Shown here: positions 2,305-28,716 of the stretch, in pieces
How the letters are laid out: each line of letters begins with the position of its first letter
How positions within the stretch are numbered: position 1 is the stretch's first letter
Source of the DNA: Rhodamnia argentea
Taxonomy: Eukaryota > Streptophyta > Magnoliopsida > Myrtales > Myrtaceae
Assembly (NCBI RefSeq): GCF_020921035.1
Contig: NC_063150.1
Location: 9,672,001-9,736,000 of the forward strand
DNA length: 64,000 nucleotides
Direction of reading: 5' to 3'
Made by a program: the position numbers and the translations under genes
Notes under the pieces: generated by a model
Seen by the model: the letters and a program-made list of their open reading frames with translations, nothing else
Databases searched by the model: none
What the model was told of the DNA's origin: nothing

Positions 2305-4029
2305 TGGCCCAAGCCGTTCGCTCTAACCACACTCGACCGCCAACACATACCAGTGCAATTACGAGAATGGCGCAAGCCCTCGAAAGATTCCAAAGAAACC
2401 CCACAATTTTATTAGATCAGTCTTGATGTGAGGGAACTAGGGATGCGCATTGTAGAACCGAGCGAGAAATTGCTGAAATGAAAGTGATAAAGGGAAATAG
2501 AACAAAACGCAAGATAAGGCGGGAAATCTAATCCCATACTTAAATCATTAAGCCTAGCTATGATGAAGGAACATTGTAAGGATGGAACAAAATCGTAATC
2601 CTGCATACTTAAAAAGGGTCCAATCTTAAAAGATCTAACAAGCACCCTAAAAAAACAATGACAAAGAATAACAGGGGGAACGGATTGTAGGAATTATGCT
2701 TCTTATGGAATAGGAATGAACCATATATAGCTATGCTGCTCTTTCCCGCTGTCACAAGAAGAGCATTATGCCAAGCGCCATTGGTAGCCCGCCCCATTAA
2801 TCTATGTTTGACTATGCAGCTACAAGAGTAATTGCACTCAGGCAAGCAACAGCAAGCGAGTTGATACTCACCATCCAACACAAAAAAGAAATCATAAGCC
2901 TATTATATTGGTGCTAATTCAGTCTTAAACCTTTCAATTATACCAATTTAGCCTTAAACATTTTTGCATTTGTGCAAATTAAATCCATCCGATCAATTTT
3001 AGACGAAAATCGCCTATGTGGAGATCAGTATTCTTACATGGCACTGTCAACAGTGGAATTTTACAAAAAAATAAAAATCGTACTTTTTAATTAGTTTTCT
3101 CTTTCTAGCTACTCTTGCCAGCCCAAATTAAGGACAAAAAGAAAGAAAAAATCATTAAAAATCCAATTTAAAAAAAAAATTCACGTATGCGCTACGTAGG
3201 ACGGCTGACATTCATGTTAGCGAATTCTAACTAAAGTTAGTCGGATTGACTCAATTGGAAAAAATGTAAAAAAATTTATAACCAAATTTGATACTAATAT
3301 AATAAATTTAAGACTTTTTCTGATACTTTTTCCAGACATGCTCGTGGAGAATGCACGAATAATGGATTCCTTGGCATGCAAGAATTAGCCCCCATCGATT
3401 CTCTGCCCTCCGTTTTCACCTCAGCGGTCAATCGATGAGCACCTTCTTTTTTAACAACTAAACCTGCACACCTCCAATAATCGCTAGGGAATGAGATAAT
3501 TAATTTGGACATAGAGTTCTCTCGCTTGGTGGTCTTGCACACTGCTTGGTAGAAGAAATCATGTATTTCTCACAGCAATAGTTATGGAAAGTTGATGGCT
3601 AAATTGAAAAAAAAATTAAAATTTATGGACTAAATTGCACATTGCGCAATAGTTTAAGAACTTGATCGTACATTTTGCAATAATTTAAGAAGTGGTAAAA
3701 AAACTACATTTAATAATTAGGAATAGTTCGAGTTCTACATTAAACAATTTTTTTTTGGGTCAGACATATTGAACAAATTAAACAAATTAAAAAGCCCATC
3801 TATGACAGCACACATTAGGCCAAAATCCCAGAATCATGGGCATCGATCTCCCGTAAATTACTTAAAATCACAGCGAGCATTGTCGAATTGCGCCACTCTT
3901 ATTCATTAATAGCAGTGCCCTTCAGTATAATAACTGTTATGGACAAACCTTTTGCGCTTGTCTCATCCCACAAACTTGAAGCAGAGATAGATGCCTCTGT
4001 TAAAGATCTGTTCAAGGCATGGAACAGAT
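2305..4029. other. Intergenic, with one degraded short repeat near 2900-3310
   Basis: No coding sequence is recognised. From about 2900 to 3310 the DNA matches the theme of the short repeat at 41748-41943: phrases such as 'aaattaaatcc', 'gatcaattttagacgaaaatcgcc' and an end reading TTTAAGACTTTTTCTGATACTTTTTCCAGA. It is probably an old Mutator-like MITE with an unclear left end. The remainder lies downstream of the B3 gene and may hold its 3' untranslated region. Confidence 0.5.
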
Positions 4030-7000
4030 TCACCGTGCCTTCTCTTTGACCTTCTCTCCCCTTCTAGGTCGTCCCGGACGCCTTTCGTTTCGGGCCCCGA
4101 TCACTTTGGTCTTCTTGTCGCATAGCTGCGTCTTTCTAGGTCTCCCCCTGCCCCTTTTAACTTGAGCCTCCGCTGGAGCATCTGAAGGCCTCTGTTGTAC
4201 ACGCCCGGACCGTTGAGCTTCCTTCGTCTTCTCTTCAATCGGATACTTGATTGGGTCCTTGGTTTGGTTCTTGATTGGCTCCGTATCATTTCTCGTCGTA
4301 GCTAGCATGATCAGATTACGGATCAATCATAGCTAAAAAATCATCCAATCAGTCATAGTTTTACACTAATTTTAATGAAGCGAAAAAACCAGACCTATGG
4401 ATGATAAGTAAAACAGAGATAGGAAGATCAACTAGTGCACTACAGAGTCAATGCAAGGGATGAACTGTAAACATACTGTTAGGTTCAGAAACAATCTCGA
4501 AGTGTCTAAAAGATAATTTAGCTCGTAACACAAACAATATAATTATCATTGAACCAACATGGTGGACTAATAATTTCTCAGCTAATGTTTCCCATGAATG
4601 AAACAATGACGATAATGCTTTTCTATGACAATAATGACCATTGCTGAGGCAAAAACGTTGATCAATTACACAGAATGTGTTGACCAAAAAAAAAAAAAAC
4701 ACCGAATATGGTTGCCACTACCTACGTCATCGGGTTGATCAGCACTCTTGATAGAACAAAATACCTCAAATAGTATTTAGTTTGTATAGAGGCAAATCGT
4801 ATTTCTTTTTTCCGTTGTGATGATTACCAGAAAAAGTATGTGTCTGTCTCAACATACTTTAAGTAAAAAGTCGCCTATTGTTTATCTCATGATAACTTTA
4901 AAATCATTTAAGTCTAACCAATATGGAAAATTCTTATGGTAATTTACATATCGCGTTTACATGTTTTCAAAGGTTTCAGATATTTTGTACAACAAAGTCA
5001 AGTAGCATTAACCAGAAAAATAGACAAGTAAAGTTTTTCCGACTTACAAGATGAACAACCACAACTTGAGCATTGACTGCCTCTGTAGATGACGACCTTG
5101 AACAAAGCTTTACCAGAAGTCAGCAATTCAAAGACGCAGGCATCGCCCTTCTGCAGTTTGTTGTCCAGCACAAATGTTTTCCAACCACCTTGGGCCCTAA
5201 CTTTTGGTTTGGCGTTGTACATCCCAAGATGGTATCGGGCGATCCAAACCCTTCCGCTAGAGCCGTGTAGCTTCATAAAACCGTTTCCGCTAGTCTTAGA
5301 GATGTGTGTCATGAAAAATGCAGCTGGTATATTCTGCAAATGAATTGGAGGGGAAAAGCAAATGTCATTCAAGGATAAGAAAATCTAATTCTCATTCAGA
5401 GGCTTGGTCCTCTAATTAGTACTATCGTTTTATTCGATGTTTTAAGTCGAATAAATCCTCCAAGTCATTCATTTTATTTTTTCGCCGGTAGCATTGTATG
5501 TTCTATCTAATTGTAAGAGAAAGAGCTATGCCATACAAATCAAGTGGAACAACTAGAATGTACCACAAAAGGCTAAAGCATAAGATTGAAGACACAAGAA
5601 TCATGGTGTAGTAAGATATAAAAGTGTCGGCTAAAGAACACTAAAAGTGTCAAAACTTGTGTACGACGCTCACTTTAGTGCCAAAACTTTCAAAACGACC
5701 ACTTAAGTGCCAACTTTTTTAAAAAACGATCACTTAAGTGCCAACTTCTTTTAAAAACGATCACTTCGGTGCCAACTCTAATTTTAACAGACGTGGCTTG
5801 CCGGAAATCCGACACGTGCTATTTTTTATCAATATTTGAGCTGATGTGACTCGGTGGAGTTGACACTGAAGTGATCGTTTTTTAAAAAAAATTGGCACTT
5901 AAATGATCGTTTTTAAAAAAAATTAGCACTTAAGTGATCGTTTTGAAAGTTTTGGCATTGAAGTGATCGTTTTTCAAAAAATTTAGCACTTAAGTGATCG
6001 TTTTGAAAGTTTTGACACTAAAGTGAGCGTCATACATAAGTTTTGGCACTTGTAGTGTACTTAAGCCTAAAAGTGTCATCCCCAGAGTCTCTATTATATC
6101 AACAGTTAATGACCAATTCAAGATGCATCAATGATGTATCCTGCCATGTCTATTTGAAAGCTACAGCAAATGCTGCAAGTGGTAAGGAGGAAATCATGAG
6201 GTACCCTTCACGTATCTGCTCCAATCAGCTGCCAGAGTAGAGTGGATCCTATCCTATGTTTACCGCTTGCCTTCCTTACCTAGCTGGTCTGGAGGAATGC
6301 GCTACATGGAGCACTAAACCCGTGCAGTTATAGAAGGGCATGTGTATATGTCACCACTCTAAGCTAATTAAAGCATAATCAAGTGCACCAAACAAATTAT
6401 GGTCCTCAAGAAATTGCAATGATTAAACTGAGCACCCGATTCATTCCTTACCAATGCGTACGGACACTGAACATAGGATGGTTGCATAAGAACTATGAAA
6501 AATGGATTTGTGGTTTCAAAAGAAGCAGCCCTCGAAAGCACTTCGACCTCTTCTTCAACTCTGAACCGTCGGTTACTCAAACACGGCACCGATTTCGGGC
6601 AATTATTACCGTCAGAGATGTGTCCATCACCATGTTCATCTGCAACAAAGATATGTCATCTTGTTTTAAATTAACTAACAAATATATCCATGGGAAATAC
6701 CTATTTACTAGATCCACAGGGTTTAGTAGGCTTCCAGTTTTTTTTTTTGGATCATTTTAACCTTTTTTAACTTGAGGTCCTTCATTGTACGAACTATTAG
6801 TCCATTCTGGACACCCATTGTAACTGCTTGTTTCCATGGATGGCTCATACAAAGAGTCGTCATCATCAGCCAGTGAATTTTTCTTCTTCTTCTTCTTCGG
6901 GGATCGAACTTTTGTTGATGATGGTGATTCTCTCCTTTTACATCTGCATGACTGAGAATCATCATCTGATATTTCAATTACCATGTCCTCGGTTTCCTCC

Positions 7001-8547
7001 ACGTCTTGTGACAACAAACGCTCATCACCAAGCTTGAATTTTCCACAATTTGCTTTACAAACCATAGGGTATGTGATTTCTGAAGCACTCGTATCACATA
7101 CAACCACATGAAACACACAGTTTCCTTCATATCTGAAGACTAGGAAGTAACCGTCTTCGATTGAGTAGTGCTTGACGAAGTCTGACCAACCATCTTGTAG
7201 CCAAAAGTCATCTTTTTGCCTCCGCAATTTCATTTTCCAAACATCACCACTAGGCATATTGAGGCACACGACGTTGGAGAAATTATTTCCGAATCTTCTG
7301 GCGAATCTTATTGGAATCTTCTGTTTGAAAAATAAGAGCATAATTTAGGGAGAAGCCTAGGAAGAAACTGCAAGTCAGGCATGCTGGATTTTATTGTTTG
7401 CTTGGAACAAATACTCATCGAAGATGTATCCATAACAGAGTAAAGAAGTGATTATGCATAAGCGGGAAGATCTTTTGACATATGAACGAAAATTGGTTAA
7501 TGAAAATAAAACATACCCATCACCAGTGATAAGATTCACTCGTCTCATGCAATCAGATGATGCATGCTCCACATATAGGATAACTCTCAGTGATAAAACC
7601 CAGTACTGAATGCTGCCTAAAACACACATTACTTGTTGAATGTTAAATATGATGACACCCTTTGCCATATAATCTAGCCTTTCTAAGCCAGTTACTTCAG
7701 TAGATCAATCACAATGCACCCACCATTACTCTCCAAAAAGTATCACCTAACTCCACCACAACACGGTGTTGCTGTCCAAATGTCTCATTCTGTAAAAGAA
7801 AATTCAGGCCAAAGCATACGGAAATGAAGTCCCAAGACAGACTTGTCGTTTATCCTAAAAGCAACCACCCACAAGAAAAAGGAAAGCAACCAAAAGACAG
7901 AAACAGAACAGGCTCATATACAGAAAGGGTAAAAAAAATGAGACAGCTCCCACCCAGGAACTAACAGCGAAACCCAAAAAGAGACGGAACGAGAACCAAC
8001 CAAGGCCATCTTCATCTGCAGTCATGGGGCTAGCGTTATGCTCACCCATCTGAAAACTTTGAGTGACATCACCAAAACAGCCAATTCTTTCCCATGGAAC
8101 TGGCAAAAGACTGCTTTTTTCTTCTTATTTGTGTCACAAAAGATTGATTATGCAACCAATAGGAGCCTGCTAATTCTTAAGAGTTGATTTGCTTTTTTCT
8201 TCTTATTTGTGTCACAAAAGATTGATTATGCAACCAATAGGAGCTGCTAATTCTTAGAGTTGATTTGCATCTGTATTAACTCTAATATGCATGGATCTGC
8301 ACCAATTTTGCCAGAGAGAAGTCTTCCCCGAGTCAAGAAATGGAAACAGCAGCAGCAAAAGGAAACTCCCAAGAAAAAGAAAATGCATAAGAATTGGGAC
8401 GAATCGAAGGCTCACAAGATTTTCACTCTGAATGTGTTGGGACCGAACAATCCTGAAGAAGTGGGGAGTCTTGGCCTCGAAAAGCTGACCATCTTCTCCA
8501 GCACAAGAAGGACCAGAGTTGCTCCGGCATGCATTTTCCTCTGCCAT
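4030..8547 (-). CDS. REM-type B3 protein with two B3 domains and two C-terminal AT-hooks
   Basis: A likely nuclear DNA-binding transcription factor. Five exons on the minus strand fit one 478-residue frame: 8547-8416, 7320-6762, 6639-6452, 5333-5048 and 4301-4030. All introns are GT-AG and phases agree. B3 domain 1 spans about residues 27-119 (TPHFFRIV, then KIPIRFARRFG, then DGYFLVFRYEG). A basic run of six lysines near residue 195 may be a nuclear signal. B3 domain 2 spans about 275-378 (NPFFIVLM, NIPAAFF, GWKTFVLDN, GDACVFELL). The last exon holds two AT-hooks, GRGRPRK near 439-445 and PGRPRR near 464-469. The start is the ATG at 8547; an in-frame ATG 18 codons upstream is possible. Both B3 domains are split by an intron at the same place, as is usual in REM genes. 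The final acceptor at 4302 has a weak pyrimidine tract, so the AT-hook exon is the least certain part. Confidence 0.85.
5629..6067. mobile_element. Foldback Mutator-like MITE with 10-bp target duplication, in a B3-gene intron
   Basis: The element is almost wholly an inverted repeat. Its left arm, starting GGCTAAAGAACACTA, pairs with its right arm, whose reverse strand starts GGCTTAAGTACACTA; pairing then runs through several copies of AAGTGATCGTTTT and AAGTGCCAA. The 10-mer TAAAAGTGTC flanks both sides (5619-5628 and 6068-6077). Long terminal inverted repeats with a 9-10 bp duplication point to the Mutator superfamily. It lies in the intron between the two exons that make up the second B3 domain. 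It encodes no protein. Confidence 0.85.
8113..8266. repeat. Tandem duplication of about 77 bp in B3-gene intron 1
   Basis: Two adjacent copies (8113-8190 and 8191-8266), each starting GCTTTTTTCTTCTTATTTG and ending in GAGTTGATTT, differ by only a few small indels. The near identity suggests a recent replication slip. Confidence 0.85.
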
Positions 8548-8734
8548 GGCAGATATGAAGGAGAGTGAGCTGTTCTCACGACAAATATTCCTCCAAGCCA
8601 CTCTCTCTCTCTCTCTCTCGATCGAAGCGAAAAGAGGAAACGATCTGTTTGCCGACAGAGACCATTTACTTGGGGCTGTCTGATTTTATTGCTTTTATTT
8701 CATCATACTAAAGAAAAGAAGGTAATTATAAGAC
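8548..8734 (-). promoter_or_regulatory. Probable 5' leader of the B3 gene with a GA microsatellite
   Basis: Just upstream of the B3 start codon lies a CT run at 8601-8619, which is GA on the coding strand. Such runs are common in plant 5' untranslated regions. No clear TATA box could be assigned, so the core promoter is not placed. Confidence 0.4.
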
Positions 8735-8798
8735 ATGTGACCCGACCGGTTCTTCTGGGTCCCAAATAAATAAGTTCTCCCACACTCGTGTAATCTTA

Positions 8799-9339
8799 GG
8801 GTCTATATGGTAATACTCTAAAAAAAATATTTCTATTCCCAAAATATTTCCAAAACACTTTGAAAACAAAAACACGTATGGTAAAAAATTATTTCAAAAG
8901 TGTTTCGAGAACATTTTTTAAAAAAAAAAACACTTTTAGAGCAAAAATGAGAAACAAAAAAACCTTGTGTCCGAATTTTGGAACACTTTTTAGAAACAAC
9001 TCAAGGGCGAGCTTGTACAAACCACCACCGTCCACCATCGTCGACGAGGAGTTGAAGCCGCCGCCACAGCCCGTCGCAGGTCGCCGACCGCCCGCCGGTC
9101 ACCGATCGCCACCGAACGCCATCCGTCGTCGCCGCCACCCGCCTCCACCGCCGCCGACCTCCGCCCCCACCGGCCATTGGCCGCAGCTTGCAGATCCTTC
9201 TTTTTGGTGAAAAAAGTGTTTTTTTGTACCGACCAAACGCGTTTCTGTTCTCGAAAATCGTAGCCGAGAACGGAAATACAAAAAAAATGTTTTTGTTCCA
9301 AATATGTTCTCAGAAAACGAAACGTTACCATACACGGTC
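8799..9339. mobile_element. PIF/Harbinger-like MITE, 541 bp, TTA target duplication, GC-rich core
   Basis: The ends GGGTCTATATGGTAA and, on the reverse strand, GACCGTGTATGGTAA are inverted repeats. TTA flanks both sides (8796-8798 and 9340-9342), as expected for PIF/Harbinger elements. Related LTR copies show the uninterrupted site: 'cacactcgtataaccttgaag' at about 12020-12040 corresponds to 'cacactcgtgtaatctta' plus 'aagtgg' here. The core from 9030 to 9190 is CCG/GCC-rich and reads open on both strands, which gives misleading 113-116 codon frames. Confidence 0.85.
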
Positions 9340-9762
9340 TTAAAGTGGCACTTATTGGTGTTAATATAATGAATAAGCGATGCAGAGGGTAAGCAAGTAA
9401 GTAGATCCTTGGGAGTGGTGTCGGTACGATTTGTGCTAGAAGTTACGGGTTAGATAGAGTATATCTTAGGAGCTGTGAAGGCGGGATTGGCCTTCCGTGT
9501 ATAAACTAATTGGGAGCCGATGTCGCTCTTCCGATGAGATCATGGCACGCCGAAACCAATTGTGGTATCTAAAGTAATCTACATTCGCTCGATATAAAGG
9601 ATGTTCGAGCTAAGTTGGACGTGGAATAATCCGATACAGAAAAGTTATTCGCCTCAATGTTTTATGGAACAACGAAAGAAACAATGCCAGCCTGGCGTAA
9701 ACGACTCGTCAGGCGCCGTACAAGCTATTCCACGGCCAAGGAAAGTGTCAGCTCATGATAAG

Positions 9763-12448: not shown

Positions 12449-13256
12449 ACATGTCTGTCCCTATTTACCGTTTGCACAAAAAGGAAAATATCACTTCCTT
12501 TTTCCCTTAAAAGGAAGAGCATCCATCAATTTTCATGGAAAGAATTGACTGAAATGATCCTTAAATTTTTGTCTAATACATTAATGTGAGTCATCAATTT
12601 TTAATTTATTTAATATGATCCCCGAACTTTAACCCAATGCACAATATGATCTCTAAAATAATAATTTGTTCAACTTAGTCCATAAACTTTTGGTACATAT
12701 TCAATGTTCAATTCAATTCATGGACTATATAAAAATGTTCAATGGTTACTTAATGGAATGACTACATTGAACATTTTCAAACAGTTTAAGAACTACATTA
12801 AACCTATTTCAAAAGTCTAGGTACTTAGTTGAACAGATTAAAAGTTCAAAGACCATATTATGCATTAGACTCAATTTCAGAACCACAAGAGACAAATTAA
12901 AAGGTCGTGAATCACATTACATATTGAGCCAAAGTTCACCAACCATTCGTGTTATTATCCCATGCCCATGTAGCCCTTTCTGCTTGAAGCTACTTCTACT
13001 TATTCTGCTCAATATTCTAGTCCAGAGCATCAGGCAGTGCGAGCATTTTTCCCCCACCAGATTTCACCACCCGGTCCACCTCACGATACGATCTAGCGAC
13101 CGGTTCCAAATGGAGCGACCGGCCACATCCTCCCGTGGGGTTCTACGATCATTGTGCTACTCTTCTCCCCGAGTCCCGTCTCTGTAGCAGATTGAAGCTG
13201 CCAGGATATACCGCAACACTCCAAAAGAATTATTTATCCAAATCGTTGTGGTATGC
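12449..13256. repeat. AT-rich dispersed repeat with weak terminal inversion, then unassigned DNA
   Basis: From about 12540 to 12950 the DNA consists of phrases such as 'agtccataaacttttggtacatattcaatg', and its two ends are weakly inverted (left TAATGTGAGTCATCAATTTTTAATTT against the reverse of the right, TAATGTGATTCACGACCTTTTAATTT). It looks like an old foldback MITE. The following 300 bases show nothing recognisable. Confidence 0.5.
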
Positions 13257-15800
13257 TAACATGCAGCAATCGGACACTCTGGCACATTTAAAAAGTTCTC
13301 AATCCTTTGCCCGAAATTCAAAACGGACCTATTATTGAACTTTCACGGAGCCAAATGGTCTCTACTTGTTAAACCACAATGAAACCATCCTCCCCTTTCA
13401 GCAGATGCGAGAAATGATTTTACTGGGAGGCCTTTTACTGGAAGAAAGTTATTTATGGCATTGTTACATGTTATCTTTGATACCTGAAAATCACGCATTT
13501 CATTGTAAACAGAAGCCTGGGAATGATCTAAGGTCAAGAAATTAAGAAACCATGGATATTTGACTATTGAGCTGATAAACTCAGTTCATCTTTTCTAGTA
13601 GTCCTGATGATCTTGTGCTCCTCTTACATGCAAAATAACCACAAATTGAGTTGAAACACCTGAAAAAGAAAACTTACAGGTCACAAGCTGGAATGCTAAT
13701 ACAGGAACCAAAATGCTTCGGAACAATGTTTTGGTCTAAATCTCGAATCCTCAAGAAATGCTAACCGAGAATTACTATATACCACATTCTTCTCGGCCTA
13801 TGTGCTGTTCAAAATGTTGCCGGACCTCCATGCACTTTACCTGATTAAACCAGTGATTACTACCGGGTTTGCCCTTGAACCTACATTGGCATTTGCGTGT
13901 CATTCCCTTATGCAGTGGATTTCCTTCTCTTCAACTTCATCCTTTTCCATGACAATATCGTGAAGATTCTTGACATCTGAAACTTTTCCCTCTTCCCTCG
14001 GCCCCTCCAGATTTCCCTTGCTAATTCTGCACCTGAGCCTCAATCTTCCAGCAATGCTGTCGGTGAAGGATTGGGGGGTGTTTCCTCTTAGCTACGGGTT
14101 TCGGGCTCTTCCCTTCTTTGGTGCAATCCCACATTGAGATCTTTGACACCATGTTCTATTCCTTGTTCGCATTTGGGCTTAGACAGTCCACAACTTTCCT
14201 TATGTTCAGCAGAACATAAATCATCAACACGTTGAACATGTGCTTCCTTGCCAGAAAAGGGCAAAGACCTTTTCACAGATGCGTGACCAGCGGAATTTTC
14301 TTGTACCACTCTAGGATCAGACTCGGACTTTGACAATGCAATGGCGTCATCATCAGTATGCACGGGAGATACATTCGCCACTGTTGCCATGTCTGAGAAG
14401 GGCAGCAACCTCTGTGCAGAAGCATGAACAAGAGAGTCTGAAGTTTCTTACTCCGCTTGCAATCGGTGGGTCTCAATTAGGTAATGTGCTGCGGACTTAA
14501 ACCCCAGTTTGGATACCTGAAAGAAAGGCAAAGGATTTAGTCTAGCTTGGCATTATATGATCAGTCACTTGGTCAGGTGAGACAGAGATACAGACAGACA
14601 GACAGACACAAAAAAGATGACCTTCTTATAAAGAGGACCGGTGGGAGGCCACCCTTTTGCTTGCCGGCACAAACTACAATTGCATATTCCGCGACAAACT
14701 GGACATAGCCAGTTTGAATTTTGCCGGGCTTCCAGCACATGTTCCCCATATCTGCAAGATACATGAACCAGAAGTTTCTTTGTTTTTTTTTTTTTTTTTT
14801 TTTTTTTGGGTCAAAGAACCAGAAGTTTATCGTATGCACAATACATGAACCAAACTGGACATAGCCAAAGCCTCGAGACATGCATACAATTGCCAGCAAG
14901 TTGCAAGTTTGGCAGCTTAATCTTGAGCGACCAGCCAAATTTAACATCCAAACGGACTCTACAAAACTGTCTCCAACACATAAACCAGTTACTAATGTAT
15001 TCAGATTATGTGAAGGACCCTCTTACTAATTATAGTTCAATATTGTATATTTCACACACAGCTTCCAGCTAGGCGTCTGTTTAAAAATAGTCGGTGAAAA
15101 AAAAAGAAGACTTGTGATCCTAGGCATGTCAAAGAAGACAGACATCAAAAGACTGTAAATGAGCTGTGTATGCAAGTGTTAACTTTATGCATGCAGAATT
15201 AACAATTCAGAGCATTAGCGTGTTTTCTCTCCCCGATTGTTAAAATAAGGGGTTAGAGCATGGTAAATGGCGTCAAAAAGCCTTACAGAAAAAGAACTCA
15301 ATAGTAAGAAACTGATTGGTGTGTCCAAGAAGCTCACCTAATGTACATAACAATCTCCACAAAACTGTCCCTGCACCAGGTTACATTGGCTGCATTGAGA
15401 ACGATAGCAAAGAATTTTCTGCCTGTTGAAATGAAAGCAACTTTATCTTGGGATTGAAATACATCAAATGTGCAATTTAATTACTAAATAAAAGATCGTT
15501 TGCGATGAAAAGCCTACTATAGTATGTACCTCATGCTAGTTGGCACATTAATTTGTATCTAGCTGATTCTAGCAGAATTTGAGAGATTTTTCCATCAATA
15601 CAGTACCTATTCCAAAGACACTGCTCTTCACAGAAAAGCAAAGTAAAAAAGATCTCATTTTATCGAATCATAATAAGTGAAATTGATATTGTTTGCAAGT
15701 TACCATGGCCCAAGAGAGACAAAATCTATCAATAACATAGATATTCAGAATCAACAAAAAGTGATTGAATTCGACTCAAGAGCTCAGCCCTCTTAGAAGA
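13257..15800. repeat. Segmental duplication, copy of 26491-28716
   Basis: This block aligns in the same orientation with 26491-28716 over most of its length. Shared landmarks include 'acactctggca' at the left, 'gagccaaatggtctcta', the CDCA7 3' exons, and 'tgattgaattcga.tcaagagctcagccctctt' at the right edge near 15762-15798. Sequence beyond the right edge differs. The copy carries extra insertions, including a T run at 14779-14808. Confidence 0.85.
13900..15422 (-). pseudogene. CDCA7-like pseudogene: copy of exons 3-5 only
   Basis: This is a damaged duplicate of the last three exons of the intact CDCA7-like gene at 27127-30623. Exon 3 equivalent (15422 to about 15340) retains the CSQC and CGDC pairs but then frameshifts to a stop (GDCYVH then stop). 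Exon 4 equivalent (14751 to about 14622) is nearly intact, with [18 protein letters not shown]. Exon 5 equivalent has a stop shortly after IETHRLQAE, and later a frameshift that leaves the end as EEPETRS then stop. Exons 1 and 2 are absent. It cannot make the zinc-finger protein. Confidence 0.85.
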
Positions 15801-15869
15801 GATCTGTTTTGCCAACAGAGAGAAGGCACAGCTACTAGCGATGAGTATAAAGGTAAAGCACAATACAAC

Positions 15870-17127
15870 GGTTGCCTACTAAAGTAAAAACTAAAAATAG
15901 AATGCCCGCACTTTTCTTGAAAGCAACTGAGGACCAAATACTTCCAGAAACCCCGGACCATAAAACACCCATAACCAACCGGAGAATAAACGCATGTGAC
16001 CCTAAAAGCATTAAAAGTTAGATAAGTCAATCTAATCTATTGAGACTTCCTATATTGACCGGATGCAATTTTACAGTCACAAGACATACCTCAATTGTAC
16101 AGACAACATTAGCGTATCCTTTAGCTCTCGTCACATCGAATGGAGTTTGCCGATCATCATTTATCACCTGAGCATTCACTGAAGGATCAAAAGGTGCATA
16201 TAGATTACATAAGCTATACAGCAGAAAGCTAGGTAAAAACATCAATTAGCATAATGTAAACTACTAATATAAGAATTATTGACACAAACCTCCGTGAGAA
16301 AGAAGTAACTTCAGAGTATTCTCGAGGCCTTACTTAGCTGCATGATGCAAAGGAGTGCCACCATTGCGACCTTCATTAAATTTACATGTTAAGAGTCAAG
16401 ACATGGATATATAGATAAATTGTCACAACAGCTGCAACGAATCAGTAAACACATACAGAGAATGACGAGTGAATATGATAAATATCATGGTTCAAATGAT
16501 AGTTTGACACGTTAAATAAAACACACTAGCCCAATTCTGAGCCAAAAGGAGATCTGTCACTGGAAGCAACTGAGATGTTACCCGCACATGATTCTACACG
16601 AGTTCCTACAATAAACTCAGGCCTCAAACACATCTTGGACCACTTCATATGAATGCATACCATGCACAGCGACCAAAAAACAGCATATACCACTCAGAAA
16701 ATGCAAAACCGTAACAAATAAGGGTACCGGGGTGGTATGCATTGACGTTGGCGCCCAATTCAATCAAAGTCATGGCAAAATTATACAGCTCCGCGTTCAT
16801 ACAGGCGACGATCAAAGGCGTCTTCCCTTATCTGTCGATCCACTGCACCGACGAAAACCACCCAAAAATGACCCATCACAACAAATTCAGAAGAATCCGC
16901 TCGTCTAACATTACAAGGAAAAATAAAAAAAATAAAAAACAGAGACAATCTAAAACTATACATAAACAATCGAGATTCGAAATGAATTCCTAAACTAAGA
17001 GAGAAGATGCTCAAAACAAGAAATTTACCTCGAGGCCAACACTTTCTACGCAGAGGGCTTTGATTCCTTAGATGTTGACATAGCAGACATGCCTATACAC
17101 CAATTCATCCTTGGATTGCTATTGAAC
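15870..17127 (-). pseudogene. XBAT35-like ankyrin pseudogene, N-terminal half
   Basis: Minus-strand fragments match plant XBAT34/35-type E3 ubiquitin ligases in order. QSKDELVY then GIKALC lies near 17127-17030, preceded and followed by stops. WIDR-stop-GKTPLIVACMNAELYN and LIELGANVNAY lie at about 16836-16735. GRNGGTPLHHAAK lies near 16375-16340 and is followed by a stop. NDDRQTPFDVTRAKGYANVV lies near 16165-16100. HMRLFSGWL and YGPGFLEVF lie near 15990-15940. These are the ankyrin repeats and the following conserved block. Several in-frame stops kill the gene. The C-terminal half is missing here but lies at 23154-24838. Confidence 0.85.
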
Positions 17128-17889
17128 CACTTCTTCTCACACCCACGCCAAAAGAAACACCGACAAAAATTTCCCTTCTTCAGATTTTGATTCAGCAACA
17201 TAAAGTATGAACAAACATTGGGCTTTTTTTTTGTGAAGCCGAAGGGACGAGAAAGACACATTCAATTTTATGCTTTCCTTCAAACAGGTCCCGAAAAAAG
17301 AAAATAAGCAATTAATTATCCAATGAATTAAATGAACTTCTTCTATTTGCCTGATATTCTGCTTTGGCAGGGGAGGGAAAGAAAATCTAAGAACAAAGAA
17401 AATACACCAACAAAAGACACCTTATCCTATTAACATCAAGTGGGCGCAGCATATATAGAAGATCTGTAGATATAATCACTCAATAGGATAGGAGATTCAT
17501 GCATGGAGCGACATCAATTTACGGACTATAAATAGAAGAATTATGAGAGCTCATGCAATGACACAGCAAAAGAAAAACGTTTAGAAACACATTTTAAACA
17601 ATGATAATATACAGAAACAAAAAATAAACAAGTTGCTCAAAAAAACTAATATAGGTGAAGTTGAAAACTATTAATGACAAGCTGGTAACATATCGATAAA
17701 AGATAATTGGTACAGCATATTAGGGTATATCACCAATTCCAAGGTGTACGAATACCAAGTCCAAAACACGTTCACTTAAAGGTATATTACAGCACCTTGA
17801 ATTAAATTGTGACGACAATCTCATTAACATACTTAGCAATAGAAAGGAAACAAGTCTCCAAGAAATTGTAGTATCTCCTTTTACTAATC

Positions 17890-18887
17890 TCCCTCCTCGT
17901 TCAATATTCCCAAAGCTTACTCATTAAAATCATGAGTGGTCTCTTACTCGTAACAAACCCTCCTACATAAATTCCCCATTCAAGAACCCATCATGGATGA
18001 CTCATTCCCTATTCACATAATATCCGGGAAGGATCTTAACATCCCAGCGGGTACATTGTACTTGCCATTGAAAAACATATCCACGGAAATAAAAGTATAT
18101 GGTGCGGTTCTGATCCACCAATTGTGGATATGGTTGCAAATTCCGTTGACACTATTATGTAACTACGGAGCCCTTATAGTATCACCCGAAATATCAAAAT
18201 CACAACTTGGGACTCTCCTCATGAACGCTCTCCTTAATCACTCAGTATCTACTAACGCACGCATAGGTAAGGGGCCGTCAAGATGGTCAACAAACGCATG
18301 ATTGTCATCATAATGTTGGACTAATGAGTTGATACCTCAAACCACAACATTATGCACATCGTCCACTTGAACTCCTATTCTTTTGGCTATGAGTCTCACC
18401 TCATAATCATGATCCACGCGAATTAGACTCACTATGTTTCGGAAGTTATAAGCGGGTGCAAATCGTTGCAAAGTAAGGCCTCAAAGCTAGCCGGATGACT
18501 TAAGATTAATATTCTACATTTTGACCGTAAAAATTTGCAATGATCTACCTAGGGCTCTAAATAATCCATAATTCATATTCATAATCGCAACTCTTGAATA
18601 GCGGGTTGTTGCAAACTCGACAATAAGCGTCGCAAACTCAATAACGCAAGCTTCATCAATATTCTCTGCAATAACGGCACCATCGATGAGGAGATAACTT
18701 AGATGCAATAATCCATGCTGCAATCTTTGTAAACTAAATCTCTGCCTAGCTCATCAAGTATACGGAGCCGAATGCACTCGTCATATTCTAGCATTGCTCC
18801 ACTAGCGGCCGATCGTGCCATTGACCGTCTAATGTGGCCCCCAGCCGAGATAATCAAAATGGGAACAGTCTCTTGGGGTTCATCCAT
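17890..18887 (-). pseudogene. Malate dehydrogenase pseudogene, left arm
   Basis: Reading the minus strand from the ATG at 18887 gives a decayed, intron-free version of plant NAD-malate dehydrogenase. The dinucleotide-binding strand reads VPILIISAGGHI, in place of the usual VLVTGAAGQI type. Later blocks read LQRFAPAYNFRNIVSLIRVDHD, then GVQVDDVHNVVV, then KYNVPAGML, in the right order and spacing for a protein of about 332 residues. There are many stops, one replacing the tryptophan after HNVVV. Lack of introns suggests a processed retrocopy (inference). It forms part of the large inverted repeat. Confidence 0.8.
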
Positions 18888-19732
18888 CTATATAGACGAG
18901 TCATTCTACTTTCCTATTTGCTGCGATATTCGTCCTTTTTCTCATATTTACTCTTTCATTGCTAGTTGCGACACATGAATATACGAAAAGATCTAGGACT
19001 TTTAGTTGTTCTCTCTAACTCTATCTCTCCAACTAGTCCGCTTAGATAGACCCATTTGTTCGTGTTTTGATCAACTCGGCTACAGGTCGCATTGGACAGT
19101 TAGTACCACATTCAGCTACTGCTGGAAACATACTAGGATTTAACTAGCCCATTCGTCTCCATTTACATCATGATATACGACACAAAAATAGTTTAGGCGA
19201 GCTACGGTGTATATTGCTACAAGGAGGATATTCTATCTTATATGGTGTACTTATTGTAGAGAATATAATATTCATAATCTTGACTCTTGAATAGTAGGAT
19301 GGTGTTGCGAAATCAGCACACAAAAAAAAAAAAAAAACCCATCGCAAGCTTGATCCATATTCTCCGGAATAGATAAATCTAAGAGAAAATAGCCTCCCTA
19401 TAGCAATGTGCGCTCTAGCTCGTCCAAACTACTTATGTTCTATATATCATGTAAATGGAAACGAATGGACTAGTCAAACCCTAACATGATTCAAGCAGCG
19501 GCCGAATGTACTACCGATTATCCAATACAACCTCCGGTCGAGGTGATCAAAATACGAACAAATAGACCCATCTATGCGGACCGGTTGGAGAGAGACAGAG
19601 TTATAGAGAATAACTAAGAGCCCTAAATCTTTTCACACATTCGCATGTCGCGACCAGCAGCGAAAGAGCAAATCCAAGAAAGAGGATGAAACGGCGCTGT
19701 AAATGGGAAAGTAGAATAACCCGTCTACATAG

Positions 19733-20720
19733 ATGGATGAACCCCAAGACTGTTCGCATTTTGATTACCTCGGCCATGAGTTGCATTAGAAGATTGGTGG
19801 CACGATCGATCGCTAGTGGAGCCATATTAGGATATTCAACTGTCTACTTGATAAGTTAGGCAGAAATCTAGTTTACAAAGCTTATAACATAGATTATTAC
19901 CCGTAGATTATCCCTTTCTTGATAGTGCCGTTATTGCAAAGAATACTGATAAAGCATGCATTGGTAGTGAGTTTGCGATAGTTATTGCCAAATTTGCCAT
20001 AACCCACTATTCAAGAGTCGCGACTATGAATACAAATTATGGATTATTTAGAGCGCCGAATAGATCATTACAAATTTTTGCACAACTAGAATGTAGAATA
20101 TTAATTGTAAGTTACCCGGCTAACTTTGGAGTCCTCATTTTGCAGCGATTTACACCGGTCATAGCTGCTAGAAACAAAATAAATCTAATTCGCGCGAATC
20201 ATGATTGTGCAATGAGACTCATAATCGAAAGAATAGCGGTTCAAATGGATACTGTGCATAATATTGTAGTTTGGGATATCAACTCATCAATCCAGCATTG
20301 TGATGGTAATCGTGCCTTTGTTAACCATCCTAACGGTTTCGTACCTGTGCATACGCTCGTAGATGCTAAGTGATTAAGGGAAATCTTCATGAGGAAAGTC
20401 CAAAGCTGTGGGTTTGACATTTCGGGTGATACAAGGGCTCCGTATGTACATAATAGTGTCAAAGGAATTCGCAATCACATCTACGATTGGTGAATGGGAA
20501 CTACACCTCATACCGTTGTTTCCATCGGTATTTTTTCCAACGACCGGTACAATGTACCCGCCGGGGTGTTGGGATCCTTTCTGGCATATTATGTAAATAG
20601 GGAATGGGTCATCCATAATGGATTCCTGAATGGAAAATTATACATGAGGGTTTGTTACGAGCAAGAGACCGCTCTCATGTTTTCATGAGGAAACTTTAGG
20701 AGTATTGAACGAGGAGGAAA
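19733..20720 (+). pseudogene. Malate dehydrogenase pseudogene, right arm
   Basis: This is the mirror copy of the left-arm remnant. From 19757 it reads TVRILITSAMSCIRRLVARS, and from 20026 a 115-codon open stretch reads ILIVSYPANF, LQRFTPVIAARNKINLIRANHD and VHNIVVWDINSS. These align with the malate dehydrogenase blocks VLVVANPANT, LKEFAPSIPEKNI and VKNVIIWGNHSS. NVPAGVLGSF follows near 20550. This arm keeps the tryptophan that is a stop in the left arm, but frames are interrupted and the GAAGQI glycines are lost, so no enzyme can be made. Confidence 0.8.
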
Positions 20721-21305
20721 ATTAATAAAATGAGAAACTACAATTTGTTGGACACTTTATCTCCTTTTTATTGTCAAATATGTTAATGAGATTGTAGTTA
20801 CAATTCAATTTAAGATATTGTAATATACTTTTAAGTAAGCGTCTTTTGGACTTGGTATTCGTATAAGTTGGAATTGACAATATACCCTAGTTTGTGGTAC
20901 TAATCCTTTATTACCGATATGTTAACAACTTGCAATTAACAGTTTTCAACTTCACCTATGTTAATTTTTTGAATTACCTATTTGTTTCTGGTTTTTGAAT
21001 ATTATCATGATTTAAAATGTATTTATTAAAATTGTTCTCCTGCTATGTCATTACATGAGCTCTCATAATTCTTCTGTTTAGAATCCATGAATTGATGCTG
21101 CTCCAGGCACGAATCTCTTACCCTATTAAGTGATTATGCACGTAGATCTTCTATGTATGCAACACCCACTTGATATTAATAGCATAAGATGGCTCTTCGT
21201 GTATATTTTATTTGTTCTTAGATTTTCTTTCCCTACCATTCCAAAGCGGAATATAAAGTAAATGTAAGGAGTTCAACCAATTCATTGGATAATGAACTGC
21301 TACGA

Positions 21306-21768: not shown

Positions 21769-22278
21769 AGCCCTGTTTGGTTGAGCATTCCAAATGAGCA
21801 TTGGGGCTCCAAAGTCCCTCGGCCAAATGCAAATGTTGTTTGGTTCATTTTTTGGCTCACTTTGGGGAGATACAGAAGGTACTTTGGGCTAAAGGACTTT
21901 TGAGAAATGCAATTAATTTTTTTATTATTTTAATTGTCACCTTCACGTGCCACCGTCGCCCACCGCCATCGCCCATTGGCCGCCGGCCACCGCCGCCGGT
22001 AGCCGCCGGCCGTCGCCGCCGCCGATCACCGTCGCCGCCACCGTCGTCGCCGCCGCCGATCACCGGCCGTCGCCGCCGCCACCTTTTTTTCAAAAAAAAT
22101 ATATATATTTTACAAAGTTCATTTCTCACCAAACAACATTTACGTCAAAGTTGCTTTCTAAATGTATTTTTGAAATACATTTTACCAAACACTACTTGCA
22201 TTTTGAAAAAGACCTTTAGCCCAAAGGTATTTGCATTTTCTCAAAGTCTCTTGGCCAAATGCTGAACCAAACAAGGCC
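21769..22278. mobile_element. PIF/Harbinger-like MITE, 510 bp, TTA target duplication, GCC-rich core
   Basis: The left end AGCCCTGTTTGGTTGAGCATT and the reverse of the right end GGCCTTGTTTGGTTCAGCATT match at most positions. TTA flanks both sides (21766-21768 and 22279-22281). A core of CCG/GCC triplets fills 21955-22080. Inner inverted matches (GGGGCTCCAAAGTCCCT-like on the left, TTTGAGAAAATGC on the right) support a foldback build. Frames of 90-154 codons across it are products of the triplet core. Confidence 0.85.
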
Positions 22279-22281
22279 TTA

Positions 22282-23153
22282 GCCTCCCGGCTCCTTGTTA
22301 GAAGCTCTATCTTCGTCGAGCATCATCACAAACAGTTCCTAATGAACCCTAAAAATAATGGGAAAAGATCTAACAATTTACTTTCTTTATGCCTTTTGCA
22401 CCGTCAGATCCAATGAACTAATAATGAGAATATGTATGACTCGTCCGATGCCTCCCACTCATGGCTCCCCAATTAGACCACCCAATAAGATGCCTTGATT
22501 AATGATAAATCTAGAGTTTAGCCACTTTGATTTACTACATCCCTTACTTAACAAAAGCACTCATCAAGCAATATTTGGTTTTTCAAAACAGGACAGGGCC
22601 GATACTAGTCCAAACCAAATCGAATCGACCGGATTAACCAATTGAATGCGTTTCGGTTAGGCCCATGCGATCGACTGTTGGCCCCGTTGGGAAAAGGGAA
22701 GGAGGCCGATTTCGCCATTCATTCACCTTCATGAAATGCATTTCATTCTAGCGTTTGAGAGTTGAGCACCAACTATACCCAATTTAAGATGTGCTGATGC
22801 CATTGACAAGACATGGTACCATTCTTTGCTTTACAGTTCCACACAACATAAAGCAATCAAATTGTGCTCTCAATTTATTCCATATAATGGAGATAAAGAT
22901 GCTGCAGAATATAGATCACAAAACCTATGAGCTGATTTACAGATCAGATAAATGCATAGATGCAGTGAACTCGTTATCACCTGTCTGTACTGCAATCATG
23001 CTCCTTGATGTTTCTCGAACAACCTCTCTTTCAATCTGCACAAACACTTACACCTGTGAACTTTCAAGAAAACTTGCATACATACATGTACCAACTTAAT
23101 ACCTCAATGTAATAAAGATCACTGTGCCTGTTCCATATAGGCAAGCTTCATAG
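22282..23153. other. Intergenic, nothing recognised
   Basis: No coding sequence is recognised. The last few hundred bases may once have been the 3' end of the XBAT gene whose C-terminal half begins at 23154 on the other strand. Confidence 0.5.
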
Positions 23154-24838
23154 TCAAAAAGGGCACAGCCTTATGACTTGGTCAATCTTGATACGATGAA
23201 CCGAGCACCCGGATTTCTTGGCTTTGATCATCTCCAAGCAAGACATAGAGCCGGCCATGTGCCCACACGGCACGCAAGCTCCCTGAATGGGATCATCCAA
23301 ACAATCGACACCGCATGTCTCTTCACTTCCATCTTCTTTGTTCCGGCTAGAGCCAACAGGTGGTAAGTCGGTGATCACTGGAGCGGACATATCAATCAGA
23401 CTAAGGTCAGTGGATGGATATTGAATTGGGCCATTCTCTACAACCTCAATATTTGCCGGAGGGGCTGATGGAGCAGAGATGGAGTTCTCACTGACACCTT
23501 CAACATTTTGAGGTGGCACGGCTATAGGACCTGTTTCATTGCTTGGACCGCAGCTATCCTTGGATGGAGCCGGCGCAGCTGCCACACTCGAACCACCGTG
23601 ACTCGTAACTTCCGCAGAATCACTCCAACTTGTGGATGCGCTCGTCCCGACACCTTGCTGAGCAGGAAAATGTGGTGGCACCTCCTGCATAGCCGACTGG
23701 ATGGAGGCGTTGATCGCCAATTGCTAATTCCAAATTTTCTGCGTGATCGCCAATTGTTAATTCCAGATCTTCTGCGGCAGGCGGTGCAGTTGACTGAACC
23801 GGCCGCTGTGCAGTTCGCAAAAATGGTGGCTGCGTGGGCTCAAATATTGGTATTTTCAACATAAAATGCATCTTGAAAAAAGAAAATCTTCAAAAAACAT
23901 ACAGCTTTCATCTTGTCTAATTTGAATTCACATATTCTAGTTCTCTCGCGATTAAATACTGGCATTCCATGACATGAAACTATTGGTACCTCAACAGAAA
24001 AATTCCTGAAAGTTGATTGACCAAGCCTTTTTCCCACTGAGATATCGAATGCACAAATGCTATTCATAATTACCCCACAACTTTGTGACTTGCTCATGTT
24101 GAAACTTGACGACATAAGTAACACTAAAAAGACTAACGCACAGACTAGGATAAGAAGTATCATGACTAGCGCAATAACACCACCGAAAAGTGCAAAATCC
24201 ATGGACAATTAATATTTCTAGTCAAGAACAGGATCGGTATGAACAACCACATGGCATTCACTTTTCTGTACTACTCACAACTTTATCCCAAAATGAAACT
24301 AATCTGCACAATACCTGTGGAATCCCTTTGCATGCATCACAAAACCACTGAAGTTGCTGTCTGTCTCTTTCATTGGCAGGTATGATATTGAAACGGGTCT
24401 CTCCAAACAAAAACAAAGTTCACCCCAAGTAAACCTAACAAATTGAGTGCAAGTGGAGTATTAGAATTTCTAATGTCCAACTATTCATTAAGCAAAGATG
24501 ATCCTCAAACAGTTCCCTATTGAATGGGGACAAGTACTTGGAAATGGAGACCGGGCGTACGCAGGCCATCATAATTACACGATATTATAACAAATTCTAA
24601 CAGGACTAACTTCTCAGTTCTACAAAATTTGAAGCTTTCATTTAATTGTAGAAAAGGAGCAATACTATACTTACGCCTACAATATAAATCTGAAATAAAT
24701 CTGAAAATAAGACCAAGCACAAATCATTACTTGAAGCATTGTCGACAATTGTCACTGAAGGATCAGAATGGTGGAATTTAGGTTCCCCTAAGTTGGCCTT
24801 CCACAATGCAGCAGTTGCTCAAGGGTGAGCATCCTGCG
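23154..24838 (-). pseudogene. XBAT35-like pseudogene, C-terminal half with degenerate RING
   Basis: Minus-strand pieces continue the XBAT family where the 15.9-17.1 kb half stops. SQDAHP-stop-ATAALWKANLGEPK and DPSVTIVDN lie near 24838-24740. NIIPANERDRQQLQWFCDAC and KGIPQ lie near 24390-24314. PPAAEDLEL lies near 23780, where a duplicated AENLELAI segment breaks the frame. The last frame (23720-23154) ends in the RING region GACVPCGHMAG, SCLEMIKAKK and KIDQVIRL. RING ligands are damaged: the first pair is C-x3-C, GHMAGC has become GHMAGS, and the final CPVC pair reads CSVH. Not a working ubiquitin ligase. Confidence 0.85.
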
Positions 24839-25680: not shown

Positions 25681-26490
25681 CTGCACTCAATCGTGAAGCG
25701 AATCAACTTTTCACTTCTCTTGCTTCAATAGATCAATGCTCACAAACCCGTCCATTTCTTTGGATCGAAAGCTCTTCTGCTGAGCCCGAGAAGCATGTCA
25801 AAACCCTAATGGCGAAGCCCCTATCATCTTTTACCCATTTCGATAGCAGATCATGGGCTGAATTTGACTGTCTGCTAGAGAGAGAGAGAGAGAGAGAAGC
25901 TCACTGGATTCCATCAATCCGGTGCTCGGAGGGAGAGCGAACGAGCCAAGGGAGAGAGGAGTGACAGAGAGGAAGTGGGGTGAGATATTTGAAGGAAGTA
26001 AAGAGACATAGGGGTGGGGGGATATTTTCTCGCAAAGAGGAGAGAGAGATGAAAAGTGTGTGATGTTTTCGGTGATGTTCTGAAAAAGTAAAGAGGGAGA
26101 AGAGGGGCAGACAGAGAAGAGAGAGAGAGAGGTGAGGCGCGTGTCAGAGATTTTTTAAAAAGTAAAGAGAAGGGAGGGAGGGGAGGAAACGTGAGAGAGG
26201 AGGGAAAGCGGGCAGACCGCAGATTACAGGTATTTTATTTATTTATTTATTTATTTTCTAGGTCGTTGAGATCAAATTACGAGAATATTCCTGGTATTAG
26301 CTTTGTTTTTATTATAAGAATTATTTTTGTAAATTTTTCATTTTATAAAAAAATTATAAAAATAATAATATATCATACATATATAAAGATATATTTAATA
26401 TACAACGTGTCGAAAATTTCTATTTTTTTAGAAATGCCTATCATGTTTTACTCCAACACTCACAGAATCATTTATAGGATTCGTCGTACT
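25681..26490. other. Intergenic with GA and TTTA microsatellites
   Basis: A GA run lies at 25877-25898, more purine-rich DNA at 26040-26220, and (TTTA)n at about 26230-26255. A 139-codon open frame at 26191-26610 overlaps this low-complexity DNA and the edge of the segmental duplication; it shows no recognisable domain. Confidence 0.5.
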
Positions 26491-28716
26491 ATGCTAACAT
26501 GCCGAAATCAGACACTCTGGCATGTTAAAAAAGTTCTAAATCCTCCACCGGAGTTCAAAACCATGTTTCATGGAGCCAAATGGTCTCTAGTCCTTTTTAA
26601 ACCACAATGAAACCATGTTCCCCTTTCAGAAGATGCAAAAAATGATTTGAGAGGCCCTTTACTGAAAGAAAGTATTTTCATGGCATTGTTACATGTCATC
26701 TTTGATACCTGAACATCACGCATTTCATTGTTAACACACGCCTGGGAATGATCTAAGGTCAAGAAATCAAGAAACCACGGATACTGTTATATTGAGCTGA
26801 TATACTCGGTTCATCTTTTCTAATAGTCCTGATGCTCTTGTGCTCCTAACATGCAAAATAACCACGAATTGTGAGGTGCATCACCATCAAAATAAAACTT
26901 ACAGGCCAGAAGCTGGAATGCTAATACAGGAACCAAAATGCTTCAGAACAATGTTTCGGCCTAAATCTTGAATCCTCAGCAAATGCTAACCGAGAATTAC
27001 TATATACCACATTCTTCTCGGCCAACGTGCTATTCAAAATATTGCCGGACCTCCACGCAGCTTACCTGATCAAACCAGAGATTGCTACTGGGTTTGCCCT
27101 TGAACCCTTACATTGGTATTTGCGTGTCAATCGCTTACGCAGTGGATTTCCTTCTCTTCACCTTCATCCTTTTCCATCACGATATCGTGAAGGTTCTTGA
27201 CATCTGAAATTTTTCCCTCGTCTCTCGGCTCGTCCAGATTTCCCTTGCTAACTCTGCGCCTAAGCCTCAATCTTCCAGCAATGCTGTCGGGTGAAGGATC
27301 GGGGTTCCTCTTAGCTTTTGGTTTCGGGCATTTCACTACTTCAGTGCAATCCATATTGAGATCTTTGGCACCATTTTCCTTAAGTTCAGCAGAACATAAA
27401 TCATCAACACTTAGAACATGTGCTTCCTTGCCAGAAAAGGGCAAAGACCTTTTCACAGAAATGTGACCAGCGGAGTTTTCTTGTACCACTCTAGGATCAG
27501 ACTCAGACTTTGACAATGCAATGGCATCATCATCGATATGCACGGGAGATACATTCGCCACTGTTTCTATATCTGAGAAGGGCAGCGACCTCTTTGCAGA
27601 TGCATGAACAAGAGAGTCTGAAGTTTCTTCCTCCTTCACTTGCAATCGGCGGGTCTCAATTAGGTAATGTGCTACGGACTTAAACCCCAGTTTGGATACC
27701 TGAAAGAGGCAAAGGATTTAGTCTAACTTGGCATTATATGATCAATCACTTGGTCAGGTGAGAAAGAGAGACAGACAGATAGAAAAAAGATGACCTTCTT
27801 ATAAAGAGGACCAGTAGGAGCCCACCCTTTTGCTTGCCGGCACAAACTACAATTGCATATTCCGCGACAAACTGGACATAGCCAGTTCGGATTTTGCTGG
27901 GCTTCCAGCACATGTTCCCCATACCTGCAAGATACATGAACCAGGAGTTTGACGTATGCAGCTAGGATATGCCAAAGCCTCCAGACACACATACACTCGC
28001 CAGCAAGTTGCAAGTTTGGCGATCTTGAGCAACCAGCCGAATTTAACATCCAAATGGACTATAAATGAGCTGCGTATGCAAGTGTTAACTTTATGCATGC
28101 AGAATTAACAATTCAGAGCATAAACATGCTTTCTCTCCCTGATTGTCAAAATCAGGGTTAGAGCATGGTAAATGGCATCAAAAGCCTTAGAGAAAAAGAA
28201 CTCAACAGTAAGAAACTGATTGGTGTGTCCAAGAAGCTCACCTCATGTACAAACAATCTCCACAAAACTGTCCCTGCACCATGTTACATTGGCTGCATTG
28301 AGTACGATAGCCAAGAGTTTTCTGCCTGTTGAAATGAAAGCCACTTTATCTTGGGAATAAAATATATCAAATGAATTATATGTGCAATTTAATTACCACA
28401 CAAAAGATCGATATGGTGAAAAGCCTACTATAATGGATACCTCATACTAATTGGCACAGTACTAGCTGATTCTAGCAGAATTTAAGAGATTTTTCCGTCA
28501 ATACATTCCTTAATCGAAAGAAACTTCTCTTCATGGCAAAGCAATGTAAAAAAGATGTCATGTTTACCGAATCATAATAAGTGAAACTAATATTGTTTGC
28601 AAGTTCCCGTTGCCATAAACCAGGGGAGACAAAATCTACCAAAAGCATAGATATTCAGAATCAACAAAAAGTGATTGAATTCGAATCAAGAGCTCAGCCC
28701 TCTTGGAAGAGATTGT
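26491..28716. repeat. Segmental duplication, source copy of 13257-15800
   Basis: This block holds exons 3-5 of the intact CDCA7-like gene plus downstream DNA and aligns in the same orientation with 13257-15800. Homology stops near 28716, inside intron 2 of the gene. Because this copy belongs to a complete open gene, it is taken as the parent. Confidence 0.85.

Follow-up and report, generated by a model that had tools for sequence, protein, structure and literature searches.

How did a 4-kb palindrome of decayed malate dehydrogenase (MDH) copies arise in a plant genome, and does it act, or did it once act, as a source of small RNAs? The locus lies in a 64,000-nucleotide stretch of Rhodamnia argentea DNA (the window; C1:9672001-9736000 of the 346.7 Mb in 74 contigs that were searched). 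A preliminary description of the window had noted a retrocopy duplicated in inverted orientation.

The inverted repeat spans positions 17307-21301, with arm 1 at 17307-19266 (plus strand) and arm 2, its reverse complement, at 19357-21301 (minus strand). Both arms are about 1.95 kb long, in agreement with the roughly 4-kb repeat and nearly 2-kb arms described before. The blastn self match of the palindrome covered 4,046 columns (E = 0), far above chance. Aligned end to end, the arms were identical in 1,537 of 1,929 columns (79.7%, 23 gaps) and differed by 292 transitions and 100 transversions (K2P, 0.246), which bears out the clear divergence noted earlier. Mismatches were spread evenly along both arms; gene conversion between the arms was rejected, because this even divergence leaves no conversion patches. 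The palindrome had no Rfam match reaching the gathering score.

Where two MDH remnants had been noted, tblastn with a plant cytosolic MDH (cMDH) found four: the two outer copies already recognized and two further inner remnants of the 5' part. The outer copies are both intronless, O1 at 17959-18887 (minus strand, residues about 2-314; tblastn) and O2 at 19752-20625 (plus strand, residues about 9-306; tblastn and PDB search). Their MDH identity was established by tblastn (E = 3e-24 and 2e-37) and, for O2, by a PDB sequence search (best match 5nue, "Malate dehydrogenase 1, cytoplasmic"; E = 1e-33), 5nue being presumably the Arabidopsis protein; unlike these searches, Pfam returned nothing at E 0.01 for the read-through O2 frame. 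Inner copy I1 (19049-19270, plus strand, residues about 6-79; tblastn E = 1e-4) lies head to head with O1, to which it is 69% identical over 222 columns. Inner copy I2 (19269-19560, minus strand, residues 9 to about 105) lies head to head with O2 and was delimited by its alignments with O1 (70% identity over 307 columns) and O2 (68% over 313), tblastn alone recovering residues 9-47 (E = 0.075). The outer copies thus head outwards from mid-arm and the inner ones towards the centre. Almost no true spacer is present, as the preliminary description had it, but the apparent spacer is itself MDH: it is the unpaired end of I2 (residues about 80-105), which makes the hairpin loop. Inner and outer copies are 67-70% identical, and the MDH parts of the arms 77-80%. 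Between the starts of O1 and I1 lies a stretch of about 130 bp (18902-19031, bounded by the limits of the O1-I1 and O2-I2 alignments; arm 2 counterpart at about 19587-19717), which showed no palindromic pairing of its own in the alignment. Homology between the arms continues about 610 bp beyond the MDH end, in line with the homology beyond the gene noted earlier. This 3' flank of O2 (20690-21301, plus strand; repeated in arm 1 at about 17307-17925) had no Pfam domain in its six frames, and a part of it (20865-21178) was 75% identical to C1:19913282-19913560.

Stops occur in both outer copies, as had been reported, with 8 in the strong tblastn match of O1 (residues 53-314) and 3 in that of O2 (residues 53-306). 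Arm differences numbered 39, 37, and 39 of about 186 each at codon positions 1, 2, and 3 (residues 53 to about 243), and inner-outer differences were likewise even over codon positions; because of this evenness, coding constraint was not seen in either comparison. Over the last approximately 63 codons, the arm differences were uneven (18, 14, and 5 by codon position), which is opposite to coding constraint only in reading-frame terms and if the frame holds there. O2 had 2 stops in 243 codons, against means of 6.5 or 9.7 in neutral simulations at equal identity (two or fewer stops in 4% or 0.3% of 300 runs). Its replacement pattern was near neutral (BLOSUM sum, 369 versus about 340). An early coding phase of O2 is possible.

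At least seven exons, separated by at least six introns, make up the cMDH gene of this genome (C1:20178291-20180434); five junctions came from a GT-AG search and the third from a gap separating two matches. Within their strong matches, O1 and O2 bridge the intron sites near residues 71, 133, 222, and 267; the first and last sites (about 18 and 305) fall in weak matches or at a match edge (weak O1 match, residues 2-46 at E = 0.38, or 7-46 at E = 0.004 in another search). A comparison with the species' own MDH gene had been proposed as a check; against the joined exons, the outer copies showed no intron-sized gap, the largest being 23 nt. The intron-free state and retrocopy origin claimed at the outset hold up, with four intron sites firmly bridged and two weakly, and these alignments support descent from a spliced cMDH retrocopy. 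Passages in two reports describe single-exon MDH genes in plants (PMC10706315, PMC12361222), so a lack of introns is not in itself proof of a retrocopy; the case for one is that the nearest type is cytosolic and that the own cytosolic gene has introns. No poly(A) tract or target-site duplication was seen by eye, at a divergence too great to expect either. On C9, MDH remnants in direct tandem order, the nearest relatives found (67-73% identical), are likewise intronless over residues 201-316. From the outer copies to the own cMDH gene, K2P was 0.47-0.60, or roughly 1.9 to 2.4 times that between the arms; because each arm accounts for about half of the arm-arm distance, most of the decay would have preceded the inversion, given constant rates.

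We can propose a history from these features. Copying of a spliced cMDH transcript into the genome came first, as the loss of introns shows. The copy then diverged, and a head-to-head duplication of its 5' part followed, an order (5' duplication first, inversion of the unit second) taken from inner-outer identity being lower than arm-arm identity. The whole unit was then inverted and duplicated at an off-centre point within the inner copy, as the asymmetric centre shows. Both arms have since decayed mostly via transitions, CHH sites included, possibly because siRNAs from the hairpin guided methylation to the locus itself, a cause suggested by the mutation spectrum described below. The inverted duplication proposed earlier stands, as a two-step, nested arrangement of inner and outer copies. 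Snap-back cDNA synthesis or twin priming is not favoured for the inner copies, because the 130 bp separating the two starts show no palindromic alignment.

Several other features were recorded in the window. A direct segmental duplication (13214-15803 and 26454-28713, about 13 kb apart; 85-86% identity by blastn, 90% in gap-free columns) has the palindrome between its two copies; no empty site was found within it, the detected homology ending before the palindrome. A likely MITE, short and bounded by inverted ends, lies just to the right of the palindrome (21770-22282). An ankyrin-repeat fragment (16700-16860, minus strand) and a RING-finger open frame (23154-23723, minus strand) both fall just under the Pfam cut-off, and we take them to resemble an XBAT-type ankyrin-RING ubiquitin ligase. 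Dof and B3 domains are also present. Of the 4-kb bins, 10 of the 11 lying before about 44 kb had negative GC skew and all 5 beyond it positive skew, a switch near 44000 that roughly tracks the orientation of recognizable genes.

A cMDH protein search of the genome returned at least 94 matches in at least 38 clusters (5-kb linking), 66 of the 94 on C1; among them are exons from genes that look intact as well as weak matches to MDH of other types, and the counts are lower bounds because the search scores best candidates only. Inverted repeats (arms of at least 150 bp, spacer up to 1 kb) were counted in 264 kb, made up of the window and 20 ten-kb stretches picked from the cMDH matches plus one DNA match; L034 and L037 held no MDH match, and L027 was picked since its match coordinates already looked inverted. 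Many decayed cMDH-like copies are present in the genome, and six further loci carry them in inverted-repeat form: L026 (arms of about 1.04 kb, 79% identity), L027 (0.68 kb, 78%), L040 (two palindromes, 2.17 kb, 85%, and 0.37 kb, 73%), L029 (0.17 kb, 83%), and L042 and L043 (0.25 kb each, 85% and 81%), the last two loci being 92% identical to each other. A repeat at L040 5102-7529 joins parts of both L040 palindromes and was not counted apart, and window repeats 5629-6067 and 5645-5991 were counted as one. Non-MDH inverted repeats (arms 163-304 bp) numbered two in the window and one each in L032 and L044. All 5 inverted repeats with arms of at least 350 bp were MDH-derived in this MDH-chosen sample, in which MDH matches cover 25 of the 264 kb; this over-representation is an enrichment within a biased sample, because the stretches were picked for MDH matches. 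At E 1e-6, the DNA fell into four groups (L026, L040, and L041; L027 and L031; L042 and L043; L032, L033, and the window palindrome), joined to one another by short stretches of similarity, for example about 104 bp shared by L031 and L032. Because only such short links join the groups, sequence similarity indicates that MDH inversions most likely arose more than once. MDH-derived inverted repeats recur in this genome at seven loci, two of them near-duplicates, and the palindrome is among them.

Other arrangements of MDH copies were observed along C1. The large palindrome of L040 (C1:20093001-20103000) is younger and longer than the one in the window; it occupies 2434-6767 of that stretch (C1:20095434-20099767; arms of about 2.2 kb with 88% identity over gap-free columns) and is followed by the second at 7173-7914. 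L029 (C1:12480001-12490000) contains at 2670-9530 an array of short MDH fragments, mostly of residues about 63-165, nearly all in the same orientation and several hundred bases apart. Six cMDH-like genes or remnants lie at C1:22312672-22482022, all on the minus strand and about 26-48 kb apart, resembling a tandem array.

Loss of CHH sites is a prediction of RNA-directed methylation. We computed the K80 transition/transversion ratio (ts/tv) and the CHH/CG ratio, which sets the share of C/T differences at CHH sites against that at CG sites. The long MDH palindromes, five in number, gave ts/tv of 3.50 (17307-21301), 4.13, 2.90, 3.43, and 3.82 and CHH/CG of 0.78, 1.08, 0.81, 0.77, and 0.62; four direct MDH pseudogene pairs gave ts/tv of 2.45, 2.74, 2.46, and 2.60 and CHH/CG of 0.21, 0.39, 0.44, and 0.45, in pairs that differ in age and with CG saturation pushing CHH/CG up with divergence. 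The pooled contrast in CHH/CG (z = 5.3) is approximate, with totals back-calculated from rounded fractions, the gene pairs and O2 versus L033 and L032 left out, and non-independent pairs (L032 and L033 are near-duplicates, and one side of the L027 versus L031 pair is a palindrome arm). For O2 against the C9 copies L033 and L032, ts/tv was 1.44 and 1.59 and CHH/CG about 0.5. MDH gene pairs had ts/tv of 1.32, 1.14, and 1.23 (three diverged pairs) and 2.38 (a 97%-similar pair), and CHH/CG of 0.61, 0.56, 0.50, and 0.04, the diverged pairs (0.50-0.61) coming close to the lowest palindrome value (0.62). Among the short MDH inverted repeats (ts/tv 2.94, 1.62 for L043, and 1.91 for L029), L042 and L043 were without the pattern (CHH/CG 0.36 and 0.33), and L029 combined a high CHH/CG on 11 sites with a ts/tv of only 1.9. 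Of the non-MDH inverted repeats, all with few sites, L044 had a similar spectrum (ts/tv 3.2) and three others ts/tv of 1.6-1.7. A repeat-like direct pair in the window (9339/11407) reached a ts/tv of 5.8 and a CHH/CG of 0.69; because it shares the spectrum, inversion is not needed to produce it. As far as substitution counts can indicate, the transition-rich, CHH-losing decay fits siRNA-directed methylation.

On balance, we read the locus as a dead nested inverted repeat, formed from a retrocopy by two-step duplication, marked by decay of the kind expected from hairpin siRNAs, and belonging to a recurring set; any role it has or had is most likely self-silencing. A sizeable but smaller probability goes to a passive relic, in which inverted copies arose by chance in duplication-rich, unstable regions and decayed like any silenced repeat, without hairpin RNA. 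Direct tandem MDH arrays do exist (C9:4.63 Mb and C1:12.48 Mb), the repeat-like direct pair has the same spectrum, and two copies of a segmental duplication lie 13 kb from each other within the window itself; chance inversion sits less well with the MDH identity of every long inverted repeat in the 264 kb, MDH-chosen though the sample was, and with a CHH/CG loss exceeding that of the four direct pseudogene pairs. Long inverted arms flanking gene sequence could also be the terminal repeats of a transposable element with a captured MDH. We regard this as extremely unlikely: searching the genome with arm 2 (very common words skipped) returned nothing beyond the arms themselves and two partial matches, no target-site duplication was seen by eye at 17306/21302, and the six frames of the 3' flank are without a domain, so the repeated same ends and target-site duplication that identify a terminal-inverted-repeat transposon were not found.

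Self-silencing would involve folding of the transcript, and the predicted minimum-energy structure is a single hairpin, as in endogenous hairpin-siRNA loci, with 1,725 arm-arm pairs and 19 uninterrupted helices of at least 21 bp in minus-strand RNA versus 1,629 and 7 in plus-strand RNA. Transitions that keep G-U pairing favour minus-strand over plus-strand RNA by 180 to 112 (p = 8e-5), with 15 of 19 100-column blocks leaning the same way and two the opposite way; polarized by protein, residues 53-306 show G>A 22, T>C 14, C>T 18, and A>G 4 on the plus strand. This asymmetry is real, and its candidate causes are transcription, replication, and selection for pairing. It recurs at L026 (50:105, p below 0.001) and L027 (55:32, p = 0.018); the L040 palindromes gave 81:106 (p = 0.079) and 20:31 (p = 0.16). 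Together with the cluster of cMDH-like genes as possible targets, it might point to an active or recent hairpin-RNA locus, transcribed leftward and directed in trans against cMDH or cMDH-like genes, which we nevertheless judge very unlikely. At 17307-21301 the GC skew is of the same sign in the left and right flanks, which makes regional strand bias a possible explanation of the asymmetry; this sign is also found in both flanks of the larger palindrome of L040 and in one flank at L026, and at L027 the skew is close to zero or reversed. Three short MDH repeats lack significant asymmetry (11:8, 12:6, and 7:7), and two of four small non-MDH palindromes in the window are lopsided too (16:5 and 0:8, versus 8:6 and 2:5); given the shared skew and these lopsided palindromes, we did not accept the asymmetry as proof of transcription. 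Few 21-mers approach any MDH gene. The intact-looking cMDH gene L025 had 0, 0, 2, and 9 at 0, 1, 2, and 3 mismatches (11 in all, versus 7 for its neighbour L026), and ten MDH regions had no exact 21-mer match to the palindrome and 3 with one mismatch (1 to L026, 2 to C9 pseudogenes). With so few matches, action of the palindrome on an MDH gene today appears unlikely, and self-silencing, now or in the past, seems better supported than a current small-RNA role on the MDH gene. By analogy with Dox and Nmy/Tmy, an expanding cMDH-like family might repeatedly spawn hairpin-RNA loci against itself, 17307-21301 being an old fossil of that process; we think this unlikely, but if true, the asymmetric transitions of several MDH palindromes would be a trace of one-way transcription or of selection for pairing.

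Single inverted pseudogenes are already known; what is new here is the genome context of several MDH inverted repeats. In open-access literature searched for malate dehydrogenase with inverted-repeat or small-RNA terms, the enzyme name was absent among the matches listed. Several inverted repeats of differing ages from one housekeeping family, beside direct copies, make a natural experiment on inversion, addressing the effect of inversion alone on silencing and mutation rate. Because the strand skew of a palindrome is zero at its origin, its transitions also gauge strand-specific mutation directly. If siRNAs exist at these loci, the question becomes why MDH copies repeatedly form hairpins.

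Long inverted repeats underlie small-RNA QTL in rice, according to the relevant part of one report (PMC7649420). The soybean I locus, as excerpted from its description (PMC3804491), likewise consists of inverted copies of a metabolic-enzyme gene (CHS) and is a working siRNA source against CHS7/8, whereas the MDH copies are too diverged from the MDH gene. Partial inverted gene copies also occur at Populus ARR17, where, in the sections describing them, only the two inverted ones of three small segments are small-RNA covered, with a link to DNA methylation (PMC9636151); the ARR17 duplicates differ from the MDH palindrome in being sex-linked and trans-acting. Maize and teosinte hairpin loci, including Tpd1, are of similar size (a figure legend names a 4,480-bp precursor), and the excerpted account demonstrates 22-nt siRNAs and a target (PMC11390486). 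The Drosophila Dox family and Nmy/Tmy have genetic proof and concern animal germline conflict in the part of the report that treats them, and there too one gene family has more than one hairpin locus (PMC10292708); the MDH palindrome is known from its DNA sequence. Inverted paralogous pseudogene pairs in rice, in the passages devoted to them (PMC2708354), make hairpin siRNAs; one pair has arms 83% identical, with small RNAs mainly from one strand. Like the palindrome, these are two inverted pseudogene copies able to fold as a hairpin, but the rice duplexes, with mapped small RNAs, measure 154-185 nt, one with a 1,283-nt loop, whereas the MDH hairpin is about 1.95 kb long, almost loopless, and nested.
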